DNA of 43,234 nucleotides. It comes from a virus. Location of the stretch: positions 1 to 43,234 of the IMG/VR virus record IMGVR_UViG_3300025917_000008; one strand, given 5' to 3'. Within the stretch, counting starts at the first letter, position 1. Every line of letters starts with the position of its first letter. The notes beneath the pieces are model-generated. The model made no database searches, had not been told where the DNA came from, and was given only the letters and a program-made list of their open reading frames with translations. A program made the position numbers and the translations under genes. Below are positions 27,172-43,234 of this stretch, piece after piece.

Positions 27172-27876
27172 GTGCCGATCCTGGCCGCCATGCAATCGGC
27201 CGCGATACGGTTGATGGGCCAGAAGCCCTCGGTTTTCTTCGGGGCCAGCCAGAGTTTCGAGATCGAGATATCCGATCTTGTGAACGAGGTTGCGAGGGAC
27301 GTTGTCGCCTCCGCCGACTGGCAAGCCCTGACAGGCGTCGGGATCATCGAAGGCGACGGCAGCACCACCGAGTTCGACCTCCCGGCCGATTACGACAAAA
27401 TGACGGTCACTGCTGGCGTTCAGGACACCTCGACATGGTTTTGGGGCTATTGGGCGATGACCGACATAACCCAATTCCTCTACCGGCAGTCGATCGGGTT
27501 TCAGCCTTATCCCGGCGGGTGGATCATCTACGGCGGGAAAATGAGGTTCGTTCCCGCGCCGCCGAGTGGCCAGAATGCAACCTTCCCCTATGTCTCGCGA
27601 AACTATGCGTGGGATTCCGGGACGCTTGAGACGAAGCCGGCTTTCACGTCGGATTCGGATGAATTCCTGCTGCCGGAACGCCTGCTGACCCTCGGCCTGG
27701 TATGGCGGTGGCGAGAGAACAAGAAGCTCGACTTCACCGGGGATCAGGAAGCCTTCATGAAGGCTATCGGCGAATATGCCGCGAAGGATAAGGGAACGCG
27801 CATCTATCGTCGCAGCAGCTATACGCGCATGCCCGGCACCTATCCCGCGTGGCCTTGGGCGTTGGGACCGGCCTGA
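27172..27876 (+). CDS. Head-tail adaptor (P22 gp4-like position)
   Basis: GTG at 27172, with GGAGG 10 bases upstream. 234 aa, beginning with a helical segment (MPILAAMQSAAIRLMG), then EISDLVNEVARDVVASADWQ, a mixed core with aromatic-rich strands (GWIIYGGKMRFVPAP) and a C-terminal helical region. This layout matches the podophage adaptors that close the portal and start the tail. Its place between capsid and tail genes agrees. Confidence 0.75.
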   Translation: MPILAAMQSAAIRLMGQKPSVFFGASQSFEIEISDLVNEVARDVVASADWQALTGVGIIEGDGSTTEFDLPADYDKMTVTAGVQDTSTWFWGYWAMTDITQFLYRQSIGFQPYPGGWIIYGGKMRFVPAPPSGQNATFPYVSRNYAWDSGTLETKPAFTSDSDEFLLPERLLTLGLVWRWRENKKLDFTGDQEAFMKAIGEYAAKDKGTRIYRRSSYTRMPGTYPAWPWALGPA

Positions 27877-29801
27877 TGTATGGCCGCACGGCTCAGCGGC
27901 CAAGGCATCGCCGCTCCCAGCTGAAGGCTTTCGCGGCGCCGATTGGCGGGTGGATTTCCAATCGCGCGCTTGCCAACCCGAACCCGACGCCCGGCCTCCC
28001 CCAAGGCGCTGCGGTTCTCGACAACTTCTTTCCGCGCTCGACCAGCGTTCAGCTTCGTCGCGGGAAGGTGCTTTATTGCACCCTCGGCAATGGCTCGGAG
28101 GATGCGTTGAGCCTGTTCAGCTACAACAACGGGCCGAACAAGAGGCTGGTCGCCGCCACCGCCAGCACGATTTACGACATTACCGATCTGCCCTTTCCCT
28201 ATGCCGTCGAGATCGTTGACGACGGCGGGGTCTTGCTCGGCGACGAGAACGGCAATTGGTTCGGGTGGAACTCCACCGAGTTCGCCGACGTGATGGGGGG
28301 ATTTACCGGTGGAAACTGGATCGTGGTTCAGTTCGCGACGACCGGCGGCGTTTATTTGATCGGCGTAAACGGAGAAGATGACGGCTTCATCTTCGATGGC
28401 TCGACCTTCTATCCAAACGTCGCGGGCGGCGTAAAGCGCCTGCTCTACGAAGCCGAAACCTCCGCCTTTACCGAAGGCGCCCTGCTTTCCGGCGGATTGT
28501 CCGGCGCCACGGCGGACATTTACAAGGTGATCGACAACGGCGCGACCGGCGAGCTTTGGCTTACCAACGTCGCTGGAGGTCCGTTCGATGACGGCGAAGC
28601 CATCACCGACACGGAAGGTGGCGCGGCTGTTGCAAACGGCGCCAGCACGGTCGCATCGCCCGGCGTTAACTTCACGTCCGGCGCCACAACGGCCGACATG
28701 TCCTTCGTCTGGGTCTATAAAAATCGCCTGTGGTTCGCCGAAAAAGACACGATGAATGCCTGGTATCTTGATCAGGTGGACTCGATCGGAGGCAATGCAG
28801 CCATTTTCCCCTTGGCCGGCGTGTTCGGCAGAGGCGGGACGTTGCTATGGGGCGCGACCTGGTCGCTTGAAGGCGGGCTTGAGGGCGGGCTTTCCGAGCA
28901 GAACATTTTCGTCTCGTCGGAGGGGGAGGTCGCTGCCTATCAGGGCATTTTCCCCGGCGAGGAGGCCACGTGGTCCAAGGTAGGGCTTTACCGCATCGGC
29001 AAGCCGCTCGGGAACAGGGCCTTCGTTCGCGGCGGTGGCGATCTGGCGGTGGCGACTTCCGTTGGCCTCGTTCCCCTTTCCAAGGCAATCGCCCTCGACA
29101 TCACGTCGCTGAACGTCGCCACGGTCTCCTATAACATCGCCGACGCATGGTCCGACGCCGTCTTTTCGCGAGGCATGAGCGATTGGCAAGGTGAGATTTG
29201 GCCGGAACAGAAGATCGCCGCCTTTTCGCCCCCGCTGATTCCAGGCTCCGGCCAGCCCGTTCTCTTTGTCTCCAATACTGAGACGGGCGCATGGAGCCGC
29301 TTCACCGGCTGGCATGCGCTTTGCATGGAGGTATTTGATGGCCGACTCTACTTTGGCTCGCCAGCGGGGGCGATCTATCTTGCCAACCAATCTGGGCAGG
29401 ATGACGGCGCAACTTATACCGGGTCACTCATGCCGCTCTTCGAGGATTTCGGCTCGCCGGCCTCCGCCAAGGTTCCCACTGTCGGCCGCGTCGTCGCTCG
29501 CGCGTCGAGCCGCATCAACGATCAGGTGCAGTGGCACAGCGACTATAATTTGACACTGTCCGCCGCGCCGAACGCGACGCAGATCAGCGACGCCGCGAGC
29601 ATCTGGGGCGCGGGAGAATGGGGCGCATCTGTCTGGGGAGCTGAGGCGCCGCAGATCATCAATCAGGAATGGCGCTCGCTGGCGGGCATCGGATACACCG
29701 GCTCGGTGTCGTTCCAGGTTACCAGCGGGGCGATCCAACCGCTTGATGTCGAGGTGATCCGGCTGGAAGCTCTCTATACGACTGCGGAGCTTGTATCCTG
29801 A
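27876..29801 (+). CDS. Large tail protein, P22 gp10-like (packaged-DNA stabilisation)
   Basis: ATG at 27876 overlaps the adaptor stop (TGATG); a GTG nine codons upstream is less likely. 641 aa. N-terminal GGWISNRALANPNPTPGLPQ, then GAAVLDNFFPRSTSVQLRRG is a hallmark of large podophage tail-hub proteins. The remainder is a repetitive beta-propeller-like series of Gly/Trp-rich strands. It would form part of the short tail tube or knob that holds DNA in the head. Confidence 0.8.
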   Translation: MYGRTAQRPRHRRSQLKAFAAPIGGWISNRALANPNPTPGLPQGAAVLDNFFPRSTSVQLRRGKVLYCTLGNGSEDALSLFSYNNGPNKRLVAATASTIYDITDLPFPYAVEIVDDGGVLLGDENGNWFGWNSTEFADVMGGFTGGNWIVVQFATTGGVYLIGVNGEDDGFIFDGSTFYPNVAGGVKRLLYEAETSAFTEGALLSGGLSGATADIYKVIDNGATGELWLTNVAGGPFDDGEAITDTEGGAAVANGASTVASPGVNFTSGATTADMSFVWVYKNRLWFAEKDTMNAWYLDQVDSIGGNAAIFPLAGVFGRGGTLLWGATWSLEGGLEGGLSEQNIFVSSEGEVAAYQGIFPGEEATWSKVGLYRIGKPLGNRAFVRGGGDLAVATSVGLVPLSKAIALDITSLNVATVSYNIADAWSDAVFSRGMSDWQGEIWPEQKIAAFSPPLIPGSGQPVLFVSNTETGAWSRFTGWHALCMEVFDGRLYFGSPAGAIYLANQSGQDDGATYTGSLMPLFEDFGSPASAKVPTVGRVVARASSRINDQVQWHSDYNLTLSAAPNATQISDAASIWGAGEWGASVWGAEAPQIINQEWRSLAGIGYTGSVSFQVTSGAIQPLDVEVIRLEALYTTAELVS

Positions 29802-34746: not shown

Positions 34747-34853
34747 GCACAGGCTTCATCATTTTCATCGCTTGCGCAATCAAGGGCGCGATTCTAACCG
34801 CGTGGGACATTCGACGCGAACGGAAGGAGAGGGCACGTGCCACGGTCAGGTGA
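34743..34853 (+). CDS. 36-aa membrane peptide
   Basis: ATGA overlap with the ejection protein. One hydrophobic helix (residues 3-19) followed by a strongly basic tail (RRERKERARATVR). The 3' end overlaps the next gene by 17 bases. A small membrane protein or leader peptide; its exact role is not known. Confidence 0.6.
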   Translation: MSTGFIIFIACAIKGAILTAWDIRRERKERARATVR

Positions 34854-35652
34854 CGGCACCTACAGCCTGCCTTCGGGTACCGTCGTACAGACGGGAGACG
34901 ATCTGCTTGTCTCGCAGCACAATCCCGCGTTTCAGGATGTCGCGGCGGCCCTGACCGGCTCGCTCGACCGCGACGGTAACGGGGGGATGCGAGCCGATTT
35001 GGATTTTGGCTCGCACAAAGCGATCAACATGCAGGACGGCACGGCCCCGACTGACGGAGCTACCGTTGGGCAGCTTTCATCCGGTGCAGGGATTCCCGTT
35101 GGGGCCGTCATGGACTTCGCCGGAAGCTCGGTGCCTGCTGGATGGTTGGTTTGCGGCGGGCAGTCTCTAAGCCGCAGCGAATATGCCGAGCTGTTCGCCG
35201 TGATCGGGACGGCGTTCGGCTCGCTCAGCGGCTCGACCTTCAGCCTGCCGGACTTGCGCGGGCGCGTGACGGCTGGTCGGGATTTCGACGCTGGCGGCAC
35301 GGCTGGGCGGCTCACCTCCACCACGATGACGCCGGATGGCGCTACGTTGGGCGCAACTGGCGGCGCGCAGACGGTAACTCTCGCCACGGACCAACTGCCG
35401 GCGCATGGGCACACCTATTCCGGAACCACAGCGTCCTCCGGCTCTCACAGTCACACGACCGACACCAGCGCCGGTCAGGGTCAGGGCGGCATTAACTTCG
35501 CCGCCAGCGCTGACCCCGGCTCGACCTCCGAGGCTGGCGCCCACACGCATACCTATTCCGGCACGACCGCGAACGCGGGCGGAGGAACCGCTCATGCCAA
35601 CGTTCAGCCGACCATCCTCATGAACAAGATCATACGAGCGAGCACAAGCTGA
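34837..35652 (+). CDS. Tail fibre/collar-domain protein
   Basis: GTG at 34837 with GGAGAGGG upstream. 271 aa. Residues about 85-150 hold the collar domain: GIPVGAVMDFAGSSVPAGWL, CGGQSLSRSEYAELFAVIG, then FSLPDLRGRVTAGRD. A His/Gly/Thr-rich region follows (HGHTYSGTTASSGSHSHT and a second HTHTYSG) and the end NVQPTILMNKIIRA is typical of tail-collar fibres. It is a receptor-contact or base-plate-like tail protein. Confidence 0.9.
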   Translation: MPRSGDGTYSLPSGTVVQTGDDLLVSQHNPAFQDVAAALTGSLDRDGNGGMRADLDFGSHKAINMQDGTAPTDGATVGQLSSGAGIPVGAVMDFAGSSVPAGWLVCGGQSLSRSEYAELFAVIGTAFGSLSGSTFSLPDLRGRVTAGRDFDAGGTAGRLTSTTMTPDGATLGATGGAQTVTLATDQLPAHGHTYSGTTASSGSHSHTTDTSAGQGQGGINFAASADPGSTSEAGAHTHTYSGTTANAGGGTAHANVQPTILMNKIIRASTS

Positions 35653-37325
35653 TGGCAGTCCCGATCAGACCCGTAGACTTGCCGGCGGCACCGGGCGGAG
35701 TTGTCGCCCCAGACTCCGCCCTCATCTTCGATGATGGGGACGGCGTTTGGAAGGCTACCCCGTCGCAAGTTCTGGATGGCGCGGGCGGCGCTTCATTTAC
35801 CGCCTTGGCGGCGGACGATGGCTCATCCTTACTCGGCTTCATTCAGGCCGGGACAGATTCTGTCGTTCGGACCGCTCAGGCCAAAATGCGCGAGCGCCTG
35901 ACCGTAGCCGACAAGGACGGCACATTTCTCGACCAGTTGGAAGCAATAGAGACCGACCTCCCCGATGGCGGGCTCGCTTACGCAGGGCCGGGAGCCTACG
36001 CCCTCTCCGCCGCGCAGGTGTTCGCGAACCAGCGAATGCGCCTCGTGGGGCAAAACTCAACCATCAGCTTCGATCCCGCCTCTCCCGCTGTCGCGATCAC
36101 CTACAACAGCCCCGACGCCGGCGGAATGGTGCAGGCCAGCTTCGACCGCTTCAGCTTCACGTCTTCGAACTCGGTGGCGAAGACGGCGTTCAAGGCGGTC
36201 AACGTCGCCGCCGTCTGTTCGATCACGAACCTCAGCATCGCCAATTCGGCATGGCTGGGGAGCGACTCGATAGGCATCCGCACCGAGGGGCGCGATACGA
36301 CCACGATCTCGGACAATATCATCGGCTGCGCCTATCCACTCTCCATCGGTGCCAACGCTTCCTTCCCCACTTTGGCCGCAGATCATTTCCGGGTGCACGA
36401 CAACGAGTTCATTTCGACATCAGCGACCGGAGCGGCGATTGTTGCCGATGACGGCGTTTCGTGGAGCACGACGAGTTTCGAGCGGCTCGCTCTGGTCGGA
36501 GGGCTCGACGGCTTCCGCCACGAATATACGGATGTTCCCGCCACGGGCGTCGCGCTCAGCTTCTCTGATACTCGCGTCGAGCAGGGTCTCGATTCCGCCG
36601 GGTGGAGCTATACAATCGGCCGCGACTTCGGCAGCGGGGCAACTCTCAATGTCGATCTAATCAACGCATTGTGGTCCAACTGCATCCTCGACGGCACCCG
36701 CAACGGCATCCGCACCCGCAATATCCAACTCGGGACCCTCGTCAATACGGTTTATGTCGGCGGCGCTTCTGACGGAGTAGCGTTCGACATTGACGGCGTT
36801 CCGGGGAGCCTCTGGACCTTCGTCGGCTGCCGGGCTCCGGCGACGGCGACTGTCGTTTTCAGTAAGCTCCGCTGCGCGCTCAAGCTTCACCCTTCCGAAG
36901 TCGGGGCTCCCATCGGACCCTACGAGCTGTGGCAGTATTTCAACCCGACACTGGCCGTTGATTCCGCAGATTATACTGCCATGAGCGCCGTTTCCGAAGG
37001 GGACTTCGGCTCTTTGGTCGGGCCGAGGCATTGGCGGTTTCCGTTCTCCTTCCCGGTGGGCGACATGACCCTCGCCTTGCCCGGATGCGCCGTCGCCAGC
37101 ATGGACGTAGACGTGACGATCACGGCCAAGGCCGCCAACAGCCAGCTGGTGGCCCGCTACCAGAAAGACGGCACACTCACGATTGTCAGCAGCGACGGAA
37201 TATTCAGCGGCGACACGCCAACCTCCGGCAAAATATATCTCACGAACCCCGGCAGCGCACAGGTCAACATGGTGGGAGACGCAGTCGCCGGGATCACGCT
37301 GGTCAAGGTGAGGATCGAGGAATGA
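35652..37325 (+). CDS. Putative tailspike / receptor-binding protein (557 aa)
   Basis: TGATG overlap with the collar gene. The N-terminal module contains PAAPGGVVAPDSALIFDDGD and VRTAQAKMRERLTVADKDGT, a head-binding type linker found before pectate-lyase-like beta-helix spikes. The middle (110-420) is a repetitive beta-rich region with many short Asp/Asn/Gly turns, and the C-terminus is beta-sandwich-like. It probably recognises and may cleave a surface polysaccharide. Catalytic residues cannot be named by eye. Confidence 0.75.
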   Translation: MAVPIRPVDLPAAPGGVVAPDSALIFDDGDGVWKATPSQVLDGAGGASFTALAADDGSSLLGFIQAGTDSVVRTAQAKMRERLTVADKDGTFLDQLEAIETDLPDGGLAYAGPGAYALSAAQVFANQRMRLVGQNSTISFDPASPAVAITYNSPDAGGMVQASFDRFSFTSSNSVAKTAFKAVNVAAVCSITNLSIANSAWLGSDSIGIRTEGRDTTTISDNIIGCAYPLSIGANASFPTLAADHFRVHDNEFISTSATGAAIVADDGVSWSTTSFERLALVGGLDGFRHEYTDVPATGVALSFSDTRVEQGLDSAGWSYTIGRDFGSGATLNVDLINALWSNCILDGTRNGIRTRNIQLGTLVNTVYVGGASDGVAFDIDGVPGSLWTFVGCRAPATATVVFSKLRCALKLHPSEVGAPIGPYELWQYFNPTLAVDSADYTAMSAVSEGDFGSLVGPRHWRFPFSFPVGDMTLALPGCAVASMDVDVTITAKAANSQLVARYQKDGTLTIVSSDGIFSGDTPTSGKIYLTNPGSAQVNMVGDAVAGITLVKVRIEE

Positions 37326-37529: not shown

Positions 37530-37661
37530 ATGAACGACAAACCCCTCCCCGACGAAGCCGAAGAGCGAAAGCCGCTCGATCCGGGCAAACCGGGACCGAA
37601 GCCGGCCGACAGTGGTGGAACCCCGCCGCCGCCGAGCGGCCCTCCCCCTCCGCATCAATAG
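37530..37661 (+). CDS. 43-aa proline-rich peptide
   Basis: AAGGAG lies seven bases before the ATG. The product is highly charged at the start (MNDKPLPDEAEERKPLDPGK) and then Pro-rich (GGTPPPPSGPPPPHQ). Disordered; no fold expected. Its 3' end touches the reverse HNH gene. Confidence 0.55.
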   Translation: MNDKPLPDEAEERKPLDPGKPGPKPADSGGTPPPPSGPPPPHQ

Positions 37662-38182
37662 ACAGATGCCCACGAATGACGATTCGCTATCCTCTTGGCA
37701 TGCGTTTTGCTGATGCCGAAGTCTCTGGCGAGACCTCGCCACGAGCGCCCCTTCGCTCTGGCTTTTCGGATGGCAATGACGGCCTCTGGCGACAACTTGG
37801 CGGCTGGATTTTTGACACCCTTCAACGTTCCGTGCCGCACGGTGTCTTCCGCGTTCTCCTGAGGAGTCGCCCAACGAAGATTGGAGATCACGTTGTGCGT
37901 TCGAATGCCGTCCCCGTGCGCCGCCTGATGCGCTCGCGTCGGCGGCTCTCCGAAGAAGGCGAAGGCCATAAGGCGATTGATGGTCGTGTGAATGCGCCTG
38001 CCGTTCGCGAACACCTTTGCCTTGACGTAGCCGTACTTGTCGAGCGCGCCGGGCCGAAGGATGCGGATTTGGGCACCCGAGCCGCCTCCGATCCTTCGCA
38101 GGCGCCCTATGCTCGAAACGGCATAGTTCGGCGCGAAGGGAATGACTTTCCAGATTTCGGTGGTATGATCGAACAGGTCCAT
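37655..38182 (-). CDS. HNH homing-type endonuclease (NUMOD4 + HNH + HTH)
   Basis: 175 aa on the opposite strand to all neighbours. N-terminal NUMOD4-like motif EIWKVIPFAPNYAVSSIGRL, then an HNH_3 core (RIHTTINRLMAFAFFG, AHQAAHGDG...HNVISNLRWATPQENA) and a C-terminal helix-turn-helix (KLSPEAVIAIR, then RGLARDFGISKTHAKRIANR). The start has GAGGGAG upstream. The arrangement is that of free-standing homing endonucleases in phages, which cut cognate sites and promote their own spread. Target site unknown. Confidence 0.9.
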   Translation of the reverse strand: MDLFDHTTEIWKVIPFAPNYAVSSIGRLRRIGGGSGAQIRILRPGALDKYGYVKAKVFANGRRIHTTINRLMAFAFFGEPPTRAHQAAHGDGIRTHNVISNLRWATPQENAEDTVRHGTLKGVKNPAAKLSPEAVIAIRKARAKGRSWRGLARDFGISKTHAKRIANRHSWASVY

Positions 38183-38295: not shown

Positions 38296-38748
38296 ATGAT
38301 TTATTGGGCCTATGTAATCCCCTTGCTCGTTATCTGCGCGTGTTCCCTGACCGGGAGAGAGCAGATGATCCGCACGGCCATGGCAATTCTCGCCAATTGG
38401 ATAATCAATTCCGGCTTCGTGCTGGCGACCGGCATCTATGACCCGTGGTGGTTTTTCCTCGCCACGGACGCGCTGACCGCATGGGTGATCCTCTATCATC
38501 CTGCCGGGAAAGCTCAAGCCCTGATCGGCTACACCTATATAGCGCAAATCCTCATGCACTGCGTCTATGCGGTATCTAACTCCGTTTTGGCGGAATATGC
38601 CTATTGGCAAATCCTCACCGCTATCGCATTTGTGCAACTCCTCTTGCTGGGGGGCTGGATCGGTGGTTTTTGGTGGCGTCGTTATTCTGATCACAGCCGG
38701 AATAGTTTCGGCCCTGTCGCGACTCGCAAAAAAGGCGTGGCGGGGTGA
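38296..38748 (+). CDS. Multi-pass membrane protein (150 aa), holin candidate
   Basis: Four or five hydrophobic segments: about residues 1-19, 27-47, 48-68, 75-95 and 103-125, with few charges between and a basic C-terminus (TRKKGVAG). The first gene of the late membrane cluster. A holin or other inner-membrane protein is plausible by position, but the number of segments is higher than in most holins. Confidence 0.7.
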   Translation: MIYWAYVIPLLVICACSLTGREQMIRTAMAILANWIINSGFVLATGIYDPWWFFLATDALTAWVILYHPAGKAQALIGYTYIAQILMHCVYAVSNSVLAEYAYWQILTAIAFVQLLLLGGWIGGFWWRRYSDHSRNSFGPVATRKKGVAG

Positions 38749-38948
38749 CAGGCGCAAGGCAAGTTAGCTGGCCGCCGAACATCGTCCTGACCATCGTTCT
38801 GGCGCTTCTCGCGGCACAGCAGGCCTATTTCAATTTCAACAGCACGACGAAGGCGGATATAGCGGTGCTTCAATCTCAGGTGGCGGCGCTGCGGAACGAT
38901 TTGAACGACGCGCGCCGGGAGCTTGGAGAGCGAAGAGAGCAACGATGA
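38745..38948 (+). CDS. Small membrane protein with coiled coil (67 aa)
   Basis: GTG overlapping the previous TGA. One membrane helix (residues 11-27), then a coiled-coil rich in Gln, Arg and Asp (TTKADIAVLQSQVAALRNDL). Topology resembles inner-membrane spanin subunits or holin regulators, though it is shorter than most i-spanins. Confidence 0.65.
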   Translation: MTGARQVSWPPNIVLTIVLALLAAQQAYFNFNSTTKADIAVLQSQVAALRNDLNDARRELGERREQR

Positions 38949-39182
38949 ATGGACGCGCTACTCAACCCCGCTGTGCTGACCATCGTCCTCGGGGCGTTCG
39001 GCGGTGCGATCACATGGTTGTGGACGCGGGTCACAGAGGCGCTAAAGAAGCATCGGGCCTGCGAGGTCGAATTGGCGACCCTGAGGGCCGAGATGGCGGC
39101 ACAGGGGCGGGAGCTTAGCATTGTGCAGGGGACATGCTCTACCTTGACCGAATTGCTCCGTAAGGAGGTCCACGTTGGCTGA
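38949..39182 (+). CDS. Small membrane protein with coiled coil (77 aa)
   Basis: Starts directly after the previous gene. A hydrophobic helix (residues 7-27) with ITWLWTRV, then a coiled coil (CEVELATLRAEMAAQGRELS). Together with the previous gene it forms a pair of similar single-pass coiled-coil proteins, candidates for spanin-like or regulatory partners. Its stop overlaps the PAS gene start. Confidence 0.65.
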   Translation: MDALLNPAVLTIVLGAFGGAITWLWTRVTEALKKHRACEVELATLRAEMAAQGRELSIVQGTCSTLTELLRKEVHVG

Positions 39183-39564
39183 CCCGGTTGACATCGCTTC
39201 GTTTATCGGGGCTGGCTTTCACAAGGTGCTGGAAGACGCCCCCTCGGCTGTCGTTATCGCTGACGATCACGGCAAGCTCGTTTGGGCGAATCGGGCTTTC
39301 GTCGCCCTGTTCGGCCATGCCCGCCCCGAGATTGTCGGCAAGCAAATAAACTTCCTCCTGCCCGAGGATCGCCGCGAGCGCCACGCGGAATATATCGAGG
39401 GGTGGTTTGGAGGCCCGCGCCCCCGCCCCATGGGCGCCGATTTAGCGATCCAGGGCCGAAAAAAGAACGGCGACGTGATCGATCTCGAAATCCAACTCTC
39501 CCCGATTGAGACCGAAAAAGGCGTGCTGGCGCTCGCATGGATCAGGGCGAGGGACATAAGGTGA
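39175..39564 (+). CDS. Stand-alone PAS-domain protein
   Basis: TTG at 39175 with AAGGAGG six bases upstream, overlapping the previous stop. 129 aa, nearly all one PAS domain: LEDAPSAVVIADDHGKLVWA, NRAFVALFGHARPEIVGK, INFLLPEDRRERHAEYI, GRKKNGDVIDLEIQLSPI. His70 aligns with the FixL haem-binding His (SRH.SY), while the FixL distal Arg position is Leu90, so haem binding is possible but not assured. There is no kinase, GGDEF, EAL or HTH partner. In a membrane/lysis cluster it may sense a small molecule, redox state or gas. Confidence 0.85.
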   Translation: MADPVDIASFIGAGFHKVLEDAPSAVVIADDHGKLVWANRAFVALFGHARPEIVGKQINFLLPEDRRERHAEYIEGWFGGPRPRPMGADLAIQGRKKNGDVIDLEIQLSPIETEKGVLALAWIRARDIR

Positions 39565-39803
39565 GCGCGGTCCAAAGGGCTCTGATCGGGCTGGCGGCGG
39601 CGACCTACATCCTCGCGGTCTACTTCTGCCTTTGGGCGGCGAGCGCCATTTCCGACACGCATACCAAAACGGTGGAAATGCACGCGATGATGACGGAGCA
39701 AAAGAGCGGCCGGGACGCGCAAATCGACCGAGGCCATTCCGACAACGCCGAGAACATATCCTCGAACACGAACCGGCTTGAGGCGCTGGAAAACAGGCAA
39801 TGA
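39561..39803 (+). CDS. Single-pass membrane protein (80 aa)
   Basis: GTG at 39561 overlaps the PAS stop (GTGA); ATG 39537 has no ribosome site. One membrane helix (about residues 7-29: ALIGLAAATYILAVYFCLWA), then a charged coiled-coil-like tail. Coupled to the PAS gene, so it might be a membrane partner. No family recognised. Confidence 0.65.
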   Translation: MSAVQRALIGLAAATYILAVYFCLWAASAISDTHTKTVEMHAMMTEQKSGRDAQIDRGHSDNAENISSNTNRLEALENRQ

Positions 39804-40096
39804 CTGAGGCTGAGCGATGCAACAGATGCGGCGGTGATAATCCAGCTTGGGCGGCGCCGTCGCCTCTCTGGAACGCCGTCATGCGCGGCGGCTCGATCAA
39901 TGGCGAGCCTGAATTCGGCGACATGGTTTGCGCCACCTGCTTTATGATTTTGGCGGAGGAGCGCGGAATTGCTTTTCGCTGGCGCCTCCAGCCAGAGGTC
40001 GTGAACGTGGCCCTTGAAACCGTCACGCCCTCCGGTCGGATTTGGGACGAAGGCCGCTGGCTTTGGACCGCGCCTTCGCTGGGAAAAAGACAGTAG
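39800..40096 (+). CDS. Cys-rich conserved phage protein (98 aa)
   Basis: ATGA overlap. N-terminal CNRCGGDNPAWAAPSPLWNA and a second CATC lower down form a zinc-binding pair. The NPxWxAPSPLWNxVM pattern is common to a small protein family in actinobacterial and proteobacterial phages of unknown function. Soluble. Confidence 0.75.
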   Translation: MTEAERCNRCGGDNPAWAAPSPLWNAVMRGGSINGEPEFGDMVCATCFMILAEERGIAFRWRLQPEVVNVALETVTPSGRIWDEGRWLWTAPSLGKRQ

Positions 40097-40159
40097 CCCG
40101 CCCATTGAGCCCGCCGCCGAACGGGGCTATGAGGGGCGAACAGCAACAGGAGGATGGGC

Positions 40160-40462
40160 GTGGGAACAGAAGCCGACGAAGCCGAGGTCCGCCAACGCAT
40201 CGCGACGGACTGCCATTATCCCCTTGGCGAGCACGACGCCATGAAGTGGGCAATCGCCTTCCGCGTCCGATTCACCGAGGGCGAGCGCGGCGTGCCCATT
40301 CCGCTTTCGGCGAGCGAACTTGACAGCCGCATGGTCGGGTGGTTCGCCAACTGCATGGCGACAGAGGAAATGCTCCAGACCGGCGGCTCCTTCCTCAACG
40401 CCGATGGGGTGCAATCGATCATCGACGGAGAGATTGAGGCACACCCGGAACTTCATCGTTAG
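40160..40462 (+). CDS. Hypothetical acidic protein (100 aa)
   Basis: GTG at 40160 is chosen because AGGAGG (40148-40153) lies six bases upstream; the ATG at 40154 touches it. 100 aa, with an acidic mixed fold (TEADEAEVRQRIATDCHYPLG, then WAIAFRVRFTEGERG). No family recognised. Confidence 0.65.
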   Translation: MGTEADEAEVRQRIATDCHYPLGEHDAMKWAIAFRVRFTEGERGVPIPLSASELDSRMVGWFANCMATEEMLQTGGSFLNADGVQSIIDGEIEAHPELHR

Positions 40463-40708
40463 GGAGAGGGGAACACGATGAAGATCAGCGAAGGATGAGA
40501 CGCTCGATTACCTGTTACTCGGTTGCGGAGGCGCTCTTGTTGCGCGAAGTGAAGCTGCGGGCCAGAGCCGACCTCTGGCATCTCGGAAGGCGAAGTGTCT
40601 TTTGGGGCTTCCGCCAAGCACCACTGAACCGACTCGATTTGACCGCTAGCAGTCTCGCCGAATCGTACGGGTCATTCCCCGTCGCCGCAGCCCAAGGAGC
40701 ATAGCACC
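40463..40708 (+). other. Gap of 246 bases, mostly without a convincing gene
   Basis: This is one of the longer stretches without a supported gene. An ORF at 40495-40704 (69 aa, MRRSITCYSVAEALLLREVK...) has only a weak ribosome site. It contains no obvious promoter or hairpin. It may be a spacer, a weak gene or a small RNA region. Confidence 0.4.
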
Positions 40709-40906
40709 ATGATCTCCAAACTCAAGCTCATTCTCGCCGCCCTGTTCGCGCTATCGGCCTGCGCGCATGGGCTTCCTCGCGAGCGGTGCATGGACCGGAT
40801 CAACGCGGCCTTCGCGGCACGGAATGTCGCGGCTCACTCAAACGAGGAGATCGGCGGCGAGATCGGCAAAGCCCACCCGCTGCCCGTGTGCTTCAGGAGA
40901 GGATAG
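40709..40906 (+). CDS. Small lipoprotein (65 aa), outer-membrane spanin candidate
   Basis: CAAGGAGCA precedes the ATG. A basic start and hydrophobic helix end at LSAC (residues 15-18), a good lipobox with Cys18. The mature part has two more cysteines and is short, like Rz1-type o-spanins, though it lacks their Pro richness. It follows the gap in the late cluster. Confidence 0.7.
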   Translation: MISKLKLILAALFALSACAHGLPRERCMDRINAAFAARNVAAHSNEEIGGEIGKAHPLPVCFRRG

Positions 40907-40909
40907 ACC

Positions 40910-41212
40910 ATGAAAGCTCTCATCGCCCTCGCTTTGTTCGCCTCGCCCGCTTTCGCGCAGACGCCGCCGCCGAATTGGGAAATGACCCTGCCCGGCGCGC
41001 GCCATTTCGCCAAGGACGTATGCTCGGAGCGCGACAGTCTCCGCAGCGACCGCGCCTGCTATGCGGCCTATCTCCGCCAGCGCGACGTCGAGGCGCGTGG
41101 CTACCCTCCCGGAGATTTTCGTTGCACCCCTGCCTATCAGCGTAGGACGCGCTGGGAGTTCTATGCCGACGACAGGCCGAACTGCCCCAACTTGAGGAGG
41201 CCGAGACGATGA
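40910..41212 (+). CDS. Secreted cysteine protein (100 aa)
   Basis: Four bases after the lipoprotein. Signal peptide of about 16 residues (MKALIALALFASPAFA|Q). The mature part has four cysteines (KDVCSERD, RACYAAYL, RCTPAY, NCPNL), probably two disulfides in the periplasm. No lysozyme or amidase motif is visible. It may be a periplasmic partner in lysis or entry exclusion. Confidence 0.7.
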   Translation: MKALIALALFASPAFAQTPPPNWEMTLPGARHFAKDVCSERDSLRSDRACYAAYLRQRDVEARGYPPGDFRCTPAYQRRTRWEFYADDRPNCPNLRRPRR

Positions 41213-41598
41213 AGAAACTATTGCTCGCGCCGTTGCTGGCGGCATCGCTCGCGCTACAGGGATGCGCTGGATTGCTCGGTGCCATTGCCGGACCCGCCCC
41301 GGCTCCGCTCACCCGCACGACAATCGATGATCGCGCGCTGGAAACCGCGTGGCGCTCGTTCGACGTGGCGTTGGACGCGATCACTCTTCTGACAGACAGG
41401 GGCATCATCGTGCCCGGCTCTCCGCAAGGGCGCAGCATCGCCACTGCCATTCGCGCCGTGAATCGGGCGCTCGCCACCGCCGAGAGGTTCGCTGCCGCCG
41501 AGTCCGCGACCGATTACGCCACCGCCCTCCGCGAAGCGACCGAGGGCATGAACACCATCCGTCAAGCTTTGGGAGGCAACAATGCCGGGAATCGGTAA
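41209..41598 (+). CDS. Lipoprotein (129 aa)
   Basis: ATGA overlap. Signal sequence MKKLLLAPLLAASLALQGC with lipobox LQGC (Cys19). The mature protein is helical (DALDAITLLTDRGII, then AIRAVNRALATAERFAAAE) and likely sits on a membrane. It overlaps the next gene by 17 bases. Lysis or superinfection-exclusion role is possible. Confidence 0.75.
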   Translation: MKKLLLAPLLAASLALQGCAGLLGAIAGPAPAPLTRTTIDDRALETAWRSFDVALDAITLLTDRGIIVPGSPQGRSIATAIRAVNRALATAERFAAAESATDYATALREATEGMNTIRQALGGNNAGNR

Positions 41599-41860
41599 CA
41601 TCATCGACACGATCCAGAATGTCATGCAGGCGGCGCAGCGCATCACCGCCGCGATCCCCGGCCTTCAGGGCGTCAGTGGAATGATCGGCGTGGCCGAACA
41701 GGTGACGGAGATCGGCGAGAAGCTGATCCCGGTCCTCGGCACTCTGAGCGGTCATGTGACTGACTCGCGCACCCAGGCCGAGATGCAACAAACTCGGGCG
41801 GAATTGGCGGCGGCAGTCAGCGCGAAGGCGGAGAGTCTAGCGGACCGGCTTGACGGCTGA
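41582..41860 (+). CDS. Hypothetical helical protein at the end of the rightward arm (92 aa)
   Basis: Starts inside the lipoprotein gene. Helical, amphipathic (IDTIQNVMQAAQRITAAIPG), with a Gln/Ala/Glu-rich C-terminus. No signal or membrane segment is certain. Last gene of the rightward arm; its 3' end overlaps the last leftward gene (41817-41860). Confidence 0.65.
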   Translation: MPGIGNIIDTIQNVMQAAQRITAAIPGLQGVSGMIGVAEQVTEIGEKLIPVLGTLSGHVTDSRTQAEMQQTRAELAAAVSAKAESLADRLDG

Positions 41861-42182
41861 GCGCCTCGAAACGGTCGGCGGCTTCGGAACACGCCTCGGC
41901 CATTTCTTCGATCAGGGCACATAGGCAAATGCTCGCGCAGTTGCACCCCATGTCAGCGGGGCACAGGCCCTCTGGCTTGCTGAGCCTGTTGAGCCTCTCC
42001 ACCAGATCACCCTCAGGAACTTGGGCGGAGAGGGCTGCGACACGGGCAAGCGTTTCTCCGCACAGTTCGTAGAAATGACCGGCGCTCTCGGCCCATTCGT
42101 CGGTTACGGCGGTAGCCCGAACAGCGGCTATCGTGGCAATAGCGTCGTCCAGCGCCTCGCGCAGAGTGGGTGTGGCGGTCAT
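41817..42182 (-). CDS. Last gene of the leftward arm (121 aa)
   Basis: ATG at 42182 overlaps the preceding stop (ATGA); the frame to 42266 enters the previous gene. Helical (LREALDDAIATIAAVRATAV) with a Cys cluster CPADMGCNCASICLC, which may bind a metal. Its end overlaps the last rightward gene on the other strand by 44 bases. Confidence 0.7.
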   Translation of the reverse strand: MTATPTLREALDDAIATIAAVRATAVTDEWAESAGHFYELCGETLARVAALSAQVPEGDLVERLNRLSKPEGLCPADMGCNCASICLCALIEEMAEACSEAADRFEALSRQAGPLDSPPSR

Positions 42183-42397
42183 GGCGCCCGCGCCAGTTCG
42201 CGCGCCTCTTCGCCGAGCGCGGTCATTTTGAAAGTGCAGTCTCCCCGCCGATTGTATTGGACGCATTCAAGCGCGCCAGCGGAGAACATCGGCACCCGGT
42301 AATGTCCGCGAATATGGCTGTACGGATACGACGCGCCGGGTTGAAGGTCGCGCAGCCAGAAGCCCCATTTGTCGGCGATTTCAGCGGCGGTCATCAT
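42179..42397 (-). CDS. Hypothetical protein with Tyr-rich middle (72 aa)
   Basis: Starts in ATGATG at 42397 or 42394, overlapping the previous stop. The sequence has a helix-turn-helix-like start (TAAEIADKWGFWLRDLQPGA), followed by YPYSHIRGHYRVPMFS and beta strands. Winged-helix like; may bind DNA. Function unknown. Confidence 0.65.
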   Translation of the reverse strand: MMTAAEIADKWGFWLRDLQPGASYPYSHIRGHYRVPMFSAGALECVQYNRRGDCTFKMTALGEEARELARAP

Positions 42398-42843
42398 CCT
42401 TCCCCCAGCATCTTGAGGGCCTCGGCTGCGGCGCGGACCTCGTCGCCGAAATGGAAATCGATACAGTCGGCCGTGAACTCAGCGGCGTCGCCCCAAGCCG
42501 AAGTCCGACTATCCGAAACTTTCCAGAGCATGTGGGCATCGTCCGCCTCAGTGCCCTTGCGAAGCCCGGCGTGCATGCTCTCCCCGATGTAGGCGGCGTC
42601 AATTTTCCCAATTACTGGCGCCAGATTCTCCAATGCCCTCGCACAGGCCAAAAGCGCGGGGAAGGAGTTGACAATCTCCTTTTCTGCCGTCCGAACCTCG
42701 GCTGCCCATGCGTAAAACTTCTCCAGCCATACAGATTTTTCTCCGTTGTGCCACGCCAGCACGTCGTCCACGGTCGCGCCAGGCATCGGCTTCAATGCGA
42801 TCCTCCGCAGGGCCTCAAGCCGCCCAAGAACATCCTCTGCCAT
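42394..42843 (-). CDS. Hypothetical helical protein (149 aa)
   Basis: Starts right after the upstream TAG. Mostly helical and acidic (MAEDVLGRLEALRRIALKPM, then ALLACARALENLAPVIGKID), with two Trp-rich stretches. It has no motif. Part of the leftward operon. Confidence 0.7.
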   Translation of the reverse strand: MAEDVLGRLEALRRIALKPMPGATVDDVLAWHNGEKSVWLEKFYAWAAEVRTAEKEIVNSFPALLACARALENLAPVIGKIDAAYIGESMHAGLRKGTEADDAHMLWKVSDSRTSAWGDAAEFTADCIDFHFGDEVRAAAEALKMLGEG

Positions 42844-42999: not shown

Positions 43000-43234
43000 C
43001 CCTTCTCTCCTTCTTCGGTATTGGCCTGCCCCTTTTCCCATTCAGCGAGCAGTTGAACGATGCGATCACAGACCGGCGCGTCTACGCCCCACAATTCGAG
43101 CCGCTCAAGAATGTCATCTTGAAGTAGGGTCGTGTCATCCAGGTCGAACATCGGATCGTGCTGCGGAGTGCCGCCGCGAGTATCGTAGGCGCCCATTATC
43201 CTGCCCCCATCCCTGTTGGCCTGCTCACCGAGGG
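42996..43234 (-). CDS. Same gene as 1-671: C-terminal part
   Basis: This is the C-terminal part of the 260-aa gene that begins at 671. It ends at a TGA at 42996-42998. An internal ATG at 43196 could be mistaken for the start of a separate 66-aa gene, but the upstream frame is open without interruption into the other end of the window. The tail is acidic (DLDDTTLLQDD) and then basic and charged. The next gene starts with a GTG that overlaps this stop. Confidence 0.8.
   Translation of the reverse strand, partial: LGEQANRDGGRIMGAYDTRGGTPQHDPMFDLDDTTLLQDDILERLELWGVDAPVCDRIVQLLAEWEKGQANTEEGEKG
43108..43234. repeat. 127-bp terminal direct repeat (right copy)
   Basis: This is an exact copy of bases 1-127, including the distinctive stretch at the start of the window. 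It should be removed before any gene or length count, because it duplicates part of one coding sequence. Confidence 0.95.

Follow-up and report, generated by a model that had tools for sequence, protein, structure and literature searches.

A gene for a PAS domain with no output domain, lying among small membrane genes of a phage, raises the question of what its product could sense and on what it could act. The window, meaning the whole 43,234-nt stretch of viral DNA that was analysed, carries an exact 127-bp direct terminal repeat (1-127 and 43108-43234), so that the genome is probably complete and either circular or circularly permuted.

A PAS protein without an output domain

The open reading frame at 39175-39564 (+ strand, TTG start) is real and complete, and encodes a stand-alone PAS protein of 129 aa. 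Residues 16-128 match positions 4-113 of the 113 in the Pfam PAS profile (E 9.7e-14; 51.8 bits, the curated cut-off being 22.6 bits), and the PAS_9, PAS_8 and PAS_4 profiles likewise exceed their cut-offs. Structure prediction, which had been proposed as a check, returned an AlphaFold2 model with the strand and helix order of a PAS domain (pLDDT 89.6, pTM 0.83; input alignment with 56 relatives). Fold and whole-domain profile match together place the protein in the PAS domain superfamily. A perfect Shine-Dalgarno sequence, AAGGAGGT (39162..39169, +), is located 5 nt upstream of the TTG start; the sequence around the start of the gene (from 39150-39210) is AAGGAGGTCCACGTTG. The gene overlaps the upstream open reading frame, which encodes a 77-aa transmembrane (TM)/coiled-coil protein, by 8 nt. 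Downstream, a membrane protein reading frame overlaps it by 28 nt if translation begins at ATG 39537 and by 4 nt (GTGA) if it begins at GTG 39561, the latter being more plausibly the start. The overlaps that couple the gene to its membrane-gene neighbours, as claimed in the original prediction, are therefore present with either start.

The closest cellular relatives share at most 46% identity with the phage protein and are input domains of large sensors. In complete close relatives the PAS domain is part of proteins of approximately 380-1300 aa, a range that leaves out frames truncated at the end of a contig and a 233-aa plasmid relative, which is more distant. In these proteins the last PAS strand is followed by a linker, I-R-D-(I/V)-T-E-R, the Asp of which is found in 54 of 54 sequences. 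The phage protein instead ends in I-R-A-R-D-I-R-stop, with Ala125 in place of the Asp of the DIT motif and the terminus four residues later. It stops after the last PAS strand, with neither a kinase nor a cyclic-di-GMP phosphodiesterase output, and no helix-turn-helix (HTH) DNA-binding output of the VqmA type was found in its sequence or with family profiles. The description of a complete PAS domain lacking an output is thus borne out. Because the output linker is lost, the protein cannot signal in cis, and if it acts, it must do so by way of another protein. Recent capture of a host gene was rejected, as no relative exceeds 46% identity.

One alternative is a degenerate passenger, the decaying fragment of a host kinase gene. 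The protein is known from a single genome, and no close homologue was found with which selection could be measured. We nevertheless regard this explanation as hardly credible given the perfect ribosome-binding site, the well-predicted fold (pLDDT 89.6), the clean overlaps with neighbouring genes, the conserved ligand residues described below, and a frame that has stayed open despite long divergence from any cellular PAS domain.

Haem-type kinship and ligand residues

The PDB sequences nearest to the PAS protein are DosP, FG214 and FixL, all of them haem sensors, with flavin PAS and LOV domains far behind. A Foldseek search with the AlphaFold model ranked FG214 (PDB 10jx) first, DosP and FixL next, and short LOV proteins together with NifL after these. 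In FixL, DosP and FG214 the proximal haem His lies on helix F-alpha, and His70 falls at the same place in the alignment, in agreement with the original prediction as regards FixL; the motif given there as SRHxxYI actually reads ERHAEYI. By this proximal His the protein falls among the FixL/DosP-type haem PAS domains, cluster 3 in the survey of Xing et al. 2023 (PMC10468136). According to that survey, whether a domain of this cluster binds haem depends primarily on the F-alpha His, which about 60% of the FixL-cluster PAS domains possess and about 40% lack. Since such His-less domains exist, kinship alone is no proof of haem. Every one of the 54 close cellular relatives has the equivalents of His70, Arg84 and Met86 (54/54).

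On the distal side of the pocket, the position of the distal Arg of FixL (R220) and DosP (R97) is occupied by Leu90, also as predicted. Leu is the usual residue there (39 of the 54 close cellular relatives, and FG214 as well), and the missing Arg is therefore a trait of the subfamily rather than a sign of decay. Judged from the alignment, O2 stabilisation of the FixL kind through a distal Arg is not available to this protein, and we do not file it as a FixL-type O2 sensor. DosP of E. coli and FixL of rhizobia share with it the PAS fold and the F-alpha proximal His at approximately 22-32% identity, but they possess a covalent phosphodiesterase or kinase output and the O2-stabilising Arg, whereas the phage protein has no output and carries Leu90.

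FG214 of Fimbriimonas ginsengisoli, a haem-binding HTH-PAS one-component switch, is the top match by structure and one of the best by sequence. In FG214, mutants and the crystal structure identify H156 as the proximal haem ligand, with H175 as the distal ligand and M172 as a possible alternative, and the state of the haem alters dimerisation (PMC13060918). These residues align with H70, D89 and M86 of the phage protein, respectively. Both proteins have the proximal His, an R-x-M-G motif with its Met, and Leu at the distal-Arg position; FG214 alone has the HTH output domain and distal His175. With Asp89 at the latter position, the phage protein does not qualify as a bis-His switch of the FG214 type. 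Taking these residues and relationships together, we consider it probable that the PAS protein binds haem.

Short LOV proteins such as PpSB1-LOV, which match by fold, are natural stand-alone PAS-fold sensors without an output, but a photoactive Cys is essential to them. None of the 129 aa of the phage protein is a cysteine, which excludes light sensing of the LOV or PYP type, and light was rejected as the signal. Of the oxygen, redox or light sensor that had originally been proposed, light and FixL-like O2 stabilisation thus fall away, and what stands is a PAS protein that is probably of the haem type and sits at a lysis locus.

The locus and its counterparts in other phages

Genes for a tail collar protein and fibre (34837..37325, +) serve as a syntenic anchor, after which the lysis cassette follows in related phages. 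A capsid gene is common to the best 80 of 91 viral contigs, many at 70-89% identity, and the nearest named phages by portal include Rhizobium and Bradyrhizobium phages. In the four relatives in which synteny was read (L082, L084, L093 and L098), the common collar and fibre genes are followed by GH19 (L082, L093) or phage lysozyme (L084, L098) genes, plus small TM/coiled-coil genes, and the gene content of this locus is strongly variable. The same place in the window holds an orphan gene for a 150-aa multi-TM, holin-like protein without a family match (38296..38748, +), a 67-aa TM/coiled-coil gene with weak matches to Rz-like spanin/holin PHROGs (38745..38948, +; phrog_739, E 0.0039; phrog_1296, E 0.042), the 77-aa gene (38949..39182, +; weak match to phrog_462, E 0.0015), the PAS gene, and an 80-aa TM/coiled-coil gene (39561..39803, +) whose GTG start overlaps the PAS stop codon. 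The PAS gene consequently lies in the syntenic lysis locus of its phage group, where 'lysis locus' is a statement about synteny and gene type, not about function. The 77-aa protein has an N-terminal TM helix (residues ~3-21) with a basic flank followed by a coiled coil, which by the positive-inside rule would be cytoplasmic.

Within the window itself the lysis cluster of the original prediction is only weakly visible (through the Rz-like 67-aa gene, E 0.004), and it is synteny with the relatives that upholds it. In the proteins from 38296 to 42843 that were scanned, no endolysin was recognisable, and the membrane genes of the window are orphans. A 650-aa protein matching an 'amidase' PHROG (27849-29801) was considered as the endolysin and rejected: its gene is located in the structural module, it has no Pfam match, relatives carry it together with a separate endolysin, and it is more likely a virion protein. 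The PAS protein did not match known holin, antiholin or spanin families in family profile searches. Directly after the membrane cluster lies a gene for a 98-aa protein with a zinc-finger-like CxxC...CxxC pattern (39800-40096, +), and further on one for a 129-aa lipoprotein-like protein (41209..41598, +). Between the fibre and the membrane cluster there is an HNH endonuclease gene (37655-38182, -; phrog_59, 2.8e-35), perhaps a homing insertion adjoining the PAS locus.

Searches among 49 capsid-sharing records recovered no PAS domain, in a search that gave a positive signal in 12 of 14 control genomes, and no relative of the PAS protein. The 150-aa neighbour was not found in these 49 related phages either; in 398 Pseudomonadota genomes it gave one weak match, inside a 595-aa frame, which was judged spurious. 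The protein could have no part in lysis and be an accessory sensor in a post-fibre insertion hot spot, where lysis genes and accessory genes alike collect, with a role in lysogeny, stress sensing or some other phage process. The variable content of the locus among relatives and the HNH endonuclease beside it would suit such a role, as would the fact that the tie to lysis in the window is one of syntenic position, with no endolysin. The translational coupling to a membrane gene on either side does not suit it, nor does the company kept by similar genes in the phages described below, and we consider this explanation unlikely.

Relatives in more distant phages were not apparent by simple means. 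Searching 50,697 phage records with tblastn gave no match at E 0.01, and at E 10 only noise and a PAS S-box protein of jumbo phage Phosso. The latter, a 434-aa multi-PAS protein of Sinorhizobium phage Phosso without obvious kinase annotation (L212, 3782-5086), was rejected as a stand-alone counterpart owing to its size and multiple PAS domains. Scanning viral contigs for exact patterns drawn from the PAS protein, from its alignment and from its neighbours likewise brought up no relatives, and a broader alignment-free PAS motif succeeded where these failed. Two scans of IMG/VR contigs with general PAS core motifs, blind to genomic context, were followed by a profile search.

In this way complete short PAS proteins were found in three further, unrelated phage contigs, which were picked by motif and not exhaustively. 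The first, L222, is a 54-kb phage with terminase, portal and capsid genes; its 128-aa PAS gene is preceded by a 146-aa TM/coiled-coil gene and directly followed by an SLT lytic transglycosylase gene (E 1.1e-9), with further TM genes. The second, L221/L204, is a 47.6-kb phage with DNA polymerase and Sak4, in which a 162-aa TM-PAS fusion stands between a 118-aa holin-like gene and a lipoprotein-like gene; the parallel with the lipoprotein-like gene of the window is suggestive only. In the third, the capsid-bearing contig L229, a 155-aa PAS gene overlaps a 74-aa coiled-coil/TM gene. This 12.7-kb contig has two more short PAS genes, making three in all (240-761, 709-1176 and 1603-2046 on the - strand), interleaved with two small TM/coiled-coil genes. 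The search for PAS genes beside lysis genes that the original prediction had recommended thus uncovered recurrence: three unrelated phages encode stand-alone FixL/DosP-like PAS proteins, in every case next to small membrane/coiled-coil genes, and this is new.

The main PAS proteins of L222, L221 and L229 have the F-alpha His, and their best PDB matches are haem PAS domains; the profile had been seeded with the subfamily of the window protein and favours FixL-like finds. Each of them is nearer to PAS domains of cells than to the others. A tree, rough owing to long branches and few columns, requires four label changes, at least three of which are forced by supported branches. The shared context is therefore not simply shared ancestry, and the tree points to several independent captures into a like context. 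The transglycosylase gene abutted by the L222 PAS gene also speaks against an accessory sensor unrelated to lysis.

Other PAS-containing proteins were encountered in the same material. Four contigs (L232, L250, L269 and L273) encode very large viral proteins (approximately 1390-1400 aa) whose PAS domain lies near residue 900. Seven prophage-like contigs (L195, L208, L230, L240, L249, L266 and L268) have PAS proteins of approximately 330-390 aa, and in L223 the gene for a protein of this size range is found ~3.7 kb after TM/coiled-coil genes. The proteins of ~330-390 aa are possibly PAS-kinases, and their genes could belong to flanking host DNA or be cargo.

Among viral proteins, a search by structure matched giant-virus and jumbo-phage kinases as well as short phage proteins, including proteins of the cultured Cellulophaga phages phi18:3 (172 aa, by length gp090) and phi19:1 (240 aa, gp108). 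The phi18:3 protein has a TM and coiled-coil N-terminus, and its gene is followed by a multi-TM gene and an endolysin gene, while gp108 of phi19:1 lies among TM genes, five genes before lysozyme. Relatives of gp090 are present in 24 Cellulophaga records: in phi38:2 the gene overlaps that of an L-alanoyl-D-glutamate peptidase by 14 nt, and in Ingeline_1 it lies two genes before a gene noted as VHS1069-like. Relatives of gp108 are found near lysozyme in Nekkels_1. The overlap with an endolysin gene in phi38:2 again argues against an accessory sensor without a part in lysis. In the Cellulophaga proteins the resemblance to PAS is confined to the fold (TM-score 0.63 and 0.71), with no Pfam match and no obvious haem His, so that the PAS scaffold may be general and its ligand variable.

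These His-less versions also lend themselves to a ligand-free explanation, in which the PAS fold is an adaptor, a clamp on membrane-protein coiled coils that would serve, for example, as an antiholin-like scaffold. The window protein would agree with this in not having kept the distal ligands (D89, L90). Retention of the F-alpha His in four independent phage PAS proteins whose best matches are haem PAS domains makes such an adaptor very unlikely in our estimation.

A target in the host, in line with the mimicry of a host PAS partner raised in the original prediction, is a further alternative. PAS domains commonly dimerise, and a protein that keeps the core of host-type sensors without their output linker could act as a decoy, dimerising with or blocking a host PAS sensor such as a FixL-like kinase or a cyclic-di-GMP enzyme and thereby altering host physiology, the position of its gene being no more than an accessory hot spot. 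Absence from 49 relatives is what would be expected of such an accessory gene. A specific decoy might, however, be closer in sequence to its target than the 46% identity or less seen with any cellular PAS domain found. The decoy also does not predict recurring placement with TM/coiled-coil and lysis genes in unrelated phages, and the fused TM versions (L221, phi18:3) argue for work at the membrane. We therefore think it improbable that the protein is a decoy.

Proposed role in lysis

The reading that we prefer, at close to an even chance of being right, is that of a split, membrane-tethered and output-less PAS sensor, probably loaded with haem b, which derives from a bacterial multi-domain sensor and would act in trans on lysis. 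A PAS domain would have been captured from such a sensor and cut just before the DIT linker. The cytosolic product would dock on the presumed cytoplasmic coiled coil of the 77-aa membrane protein, and the two together would make up a split TM/coiled-coil/PAS receptor. When a haem ligand binds or leaves, or the redox state changes (O2, NO, CO, Fe2+/Fe3+), the dimer state or the contacts of the PAS protein might then alter, and the altered state could gate the holin-like proteins so that permeabilisation of the membrane is delayed or advanced. In L221 and in the Cellulophaga phages a single chain contains all of these parts (TM, coiled coil and PAS). In the window, in L222 and in L229 they are divided between a TM/coiled-coil gene and an adjoining PAS gene, the ends of the two overlapping or abutting. 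In L222 and L229 the coiled coils of the counterparts of the 77-aa protein are likewise predicted to be cytoplasmic by the positive-inside rule.

VqmA of vibriophage VP882 is tied to the choice between lysis and lysogeny. It is a phage PAS-HTH quorum-sensing receptor (PMC8284805), and as such is also a phage-encoded PAS protein, but it is a transcription factor and does not stand alone in a lysis cassette. With VqmA a phage PAS was already known; the haem-type PAS without an output, recruited to phage lysis loci, is a new combination. A literature search, mostly outside subscription papers, turned up no publication that describes PAS proteins in the lysis cassettes of phages, which fits the earlier assertion that no such system has been described.

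Phage yield is decided by when lysis occurs, and this timing is usually described as an internal holin clock. Few inputs to this clock are known, among them lysis inhibition upon superinfection in T4 and membrane depolarisation. RI and RIII of T4 are small lysis-inhibition proteins that bind the holin and set the time of lysis upon a signal, RIII being cytoplasmic. They resemble the proposed PAS role as small proteins of signal-responsive lysis timing, but they do not have the PAS fold, and no sequence relation between them and the PAS protein was found.

For phages more broadly, we hold it possible, if somewhat doubtful, that output-stripped haem-PAS domains have repeatedly been recruited as split or fused membrane receptors of lysis cassettes, through which oxygen, NO or redox state would set the time of lysis or the decision to lyse. 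Similar proteins in similar places of several unrelated phages suggest that lysis is adjusted to a chemical signal in some phages. The group of haem-PAS proteins gains a stand-alone, output-less architecture. If the proposal is true, a gas or redox sensor in lysis cassettes would be an environmental input to lysis, and would constitute a new class of environment-gated lysis regulator. The question of whether phages read oxygen or respiration before bursting the cell would then become directly testable, and culturable Cellulophaga phages with PAS-like genes beside an endolysin gene offer an experimental entry.
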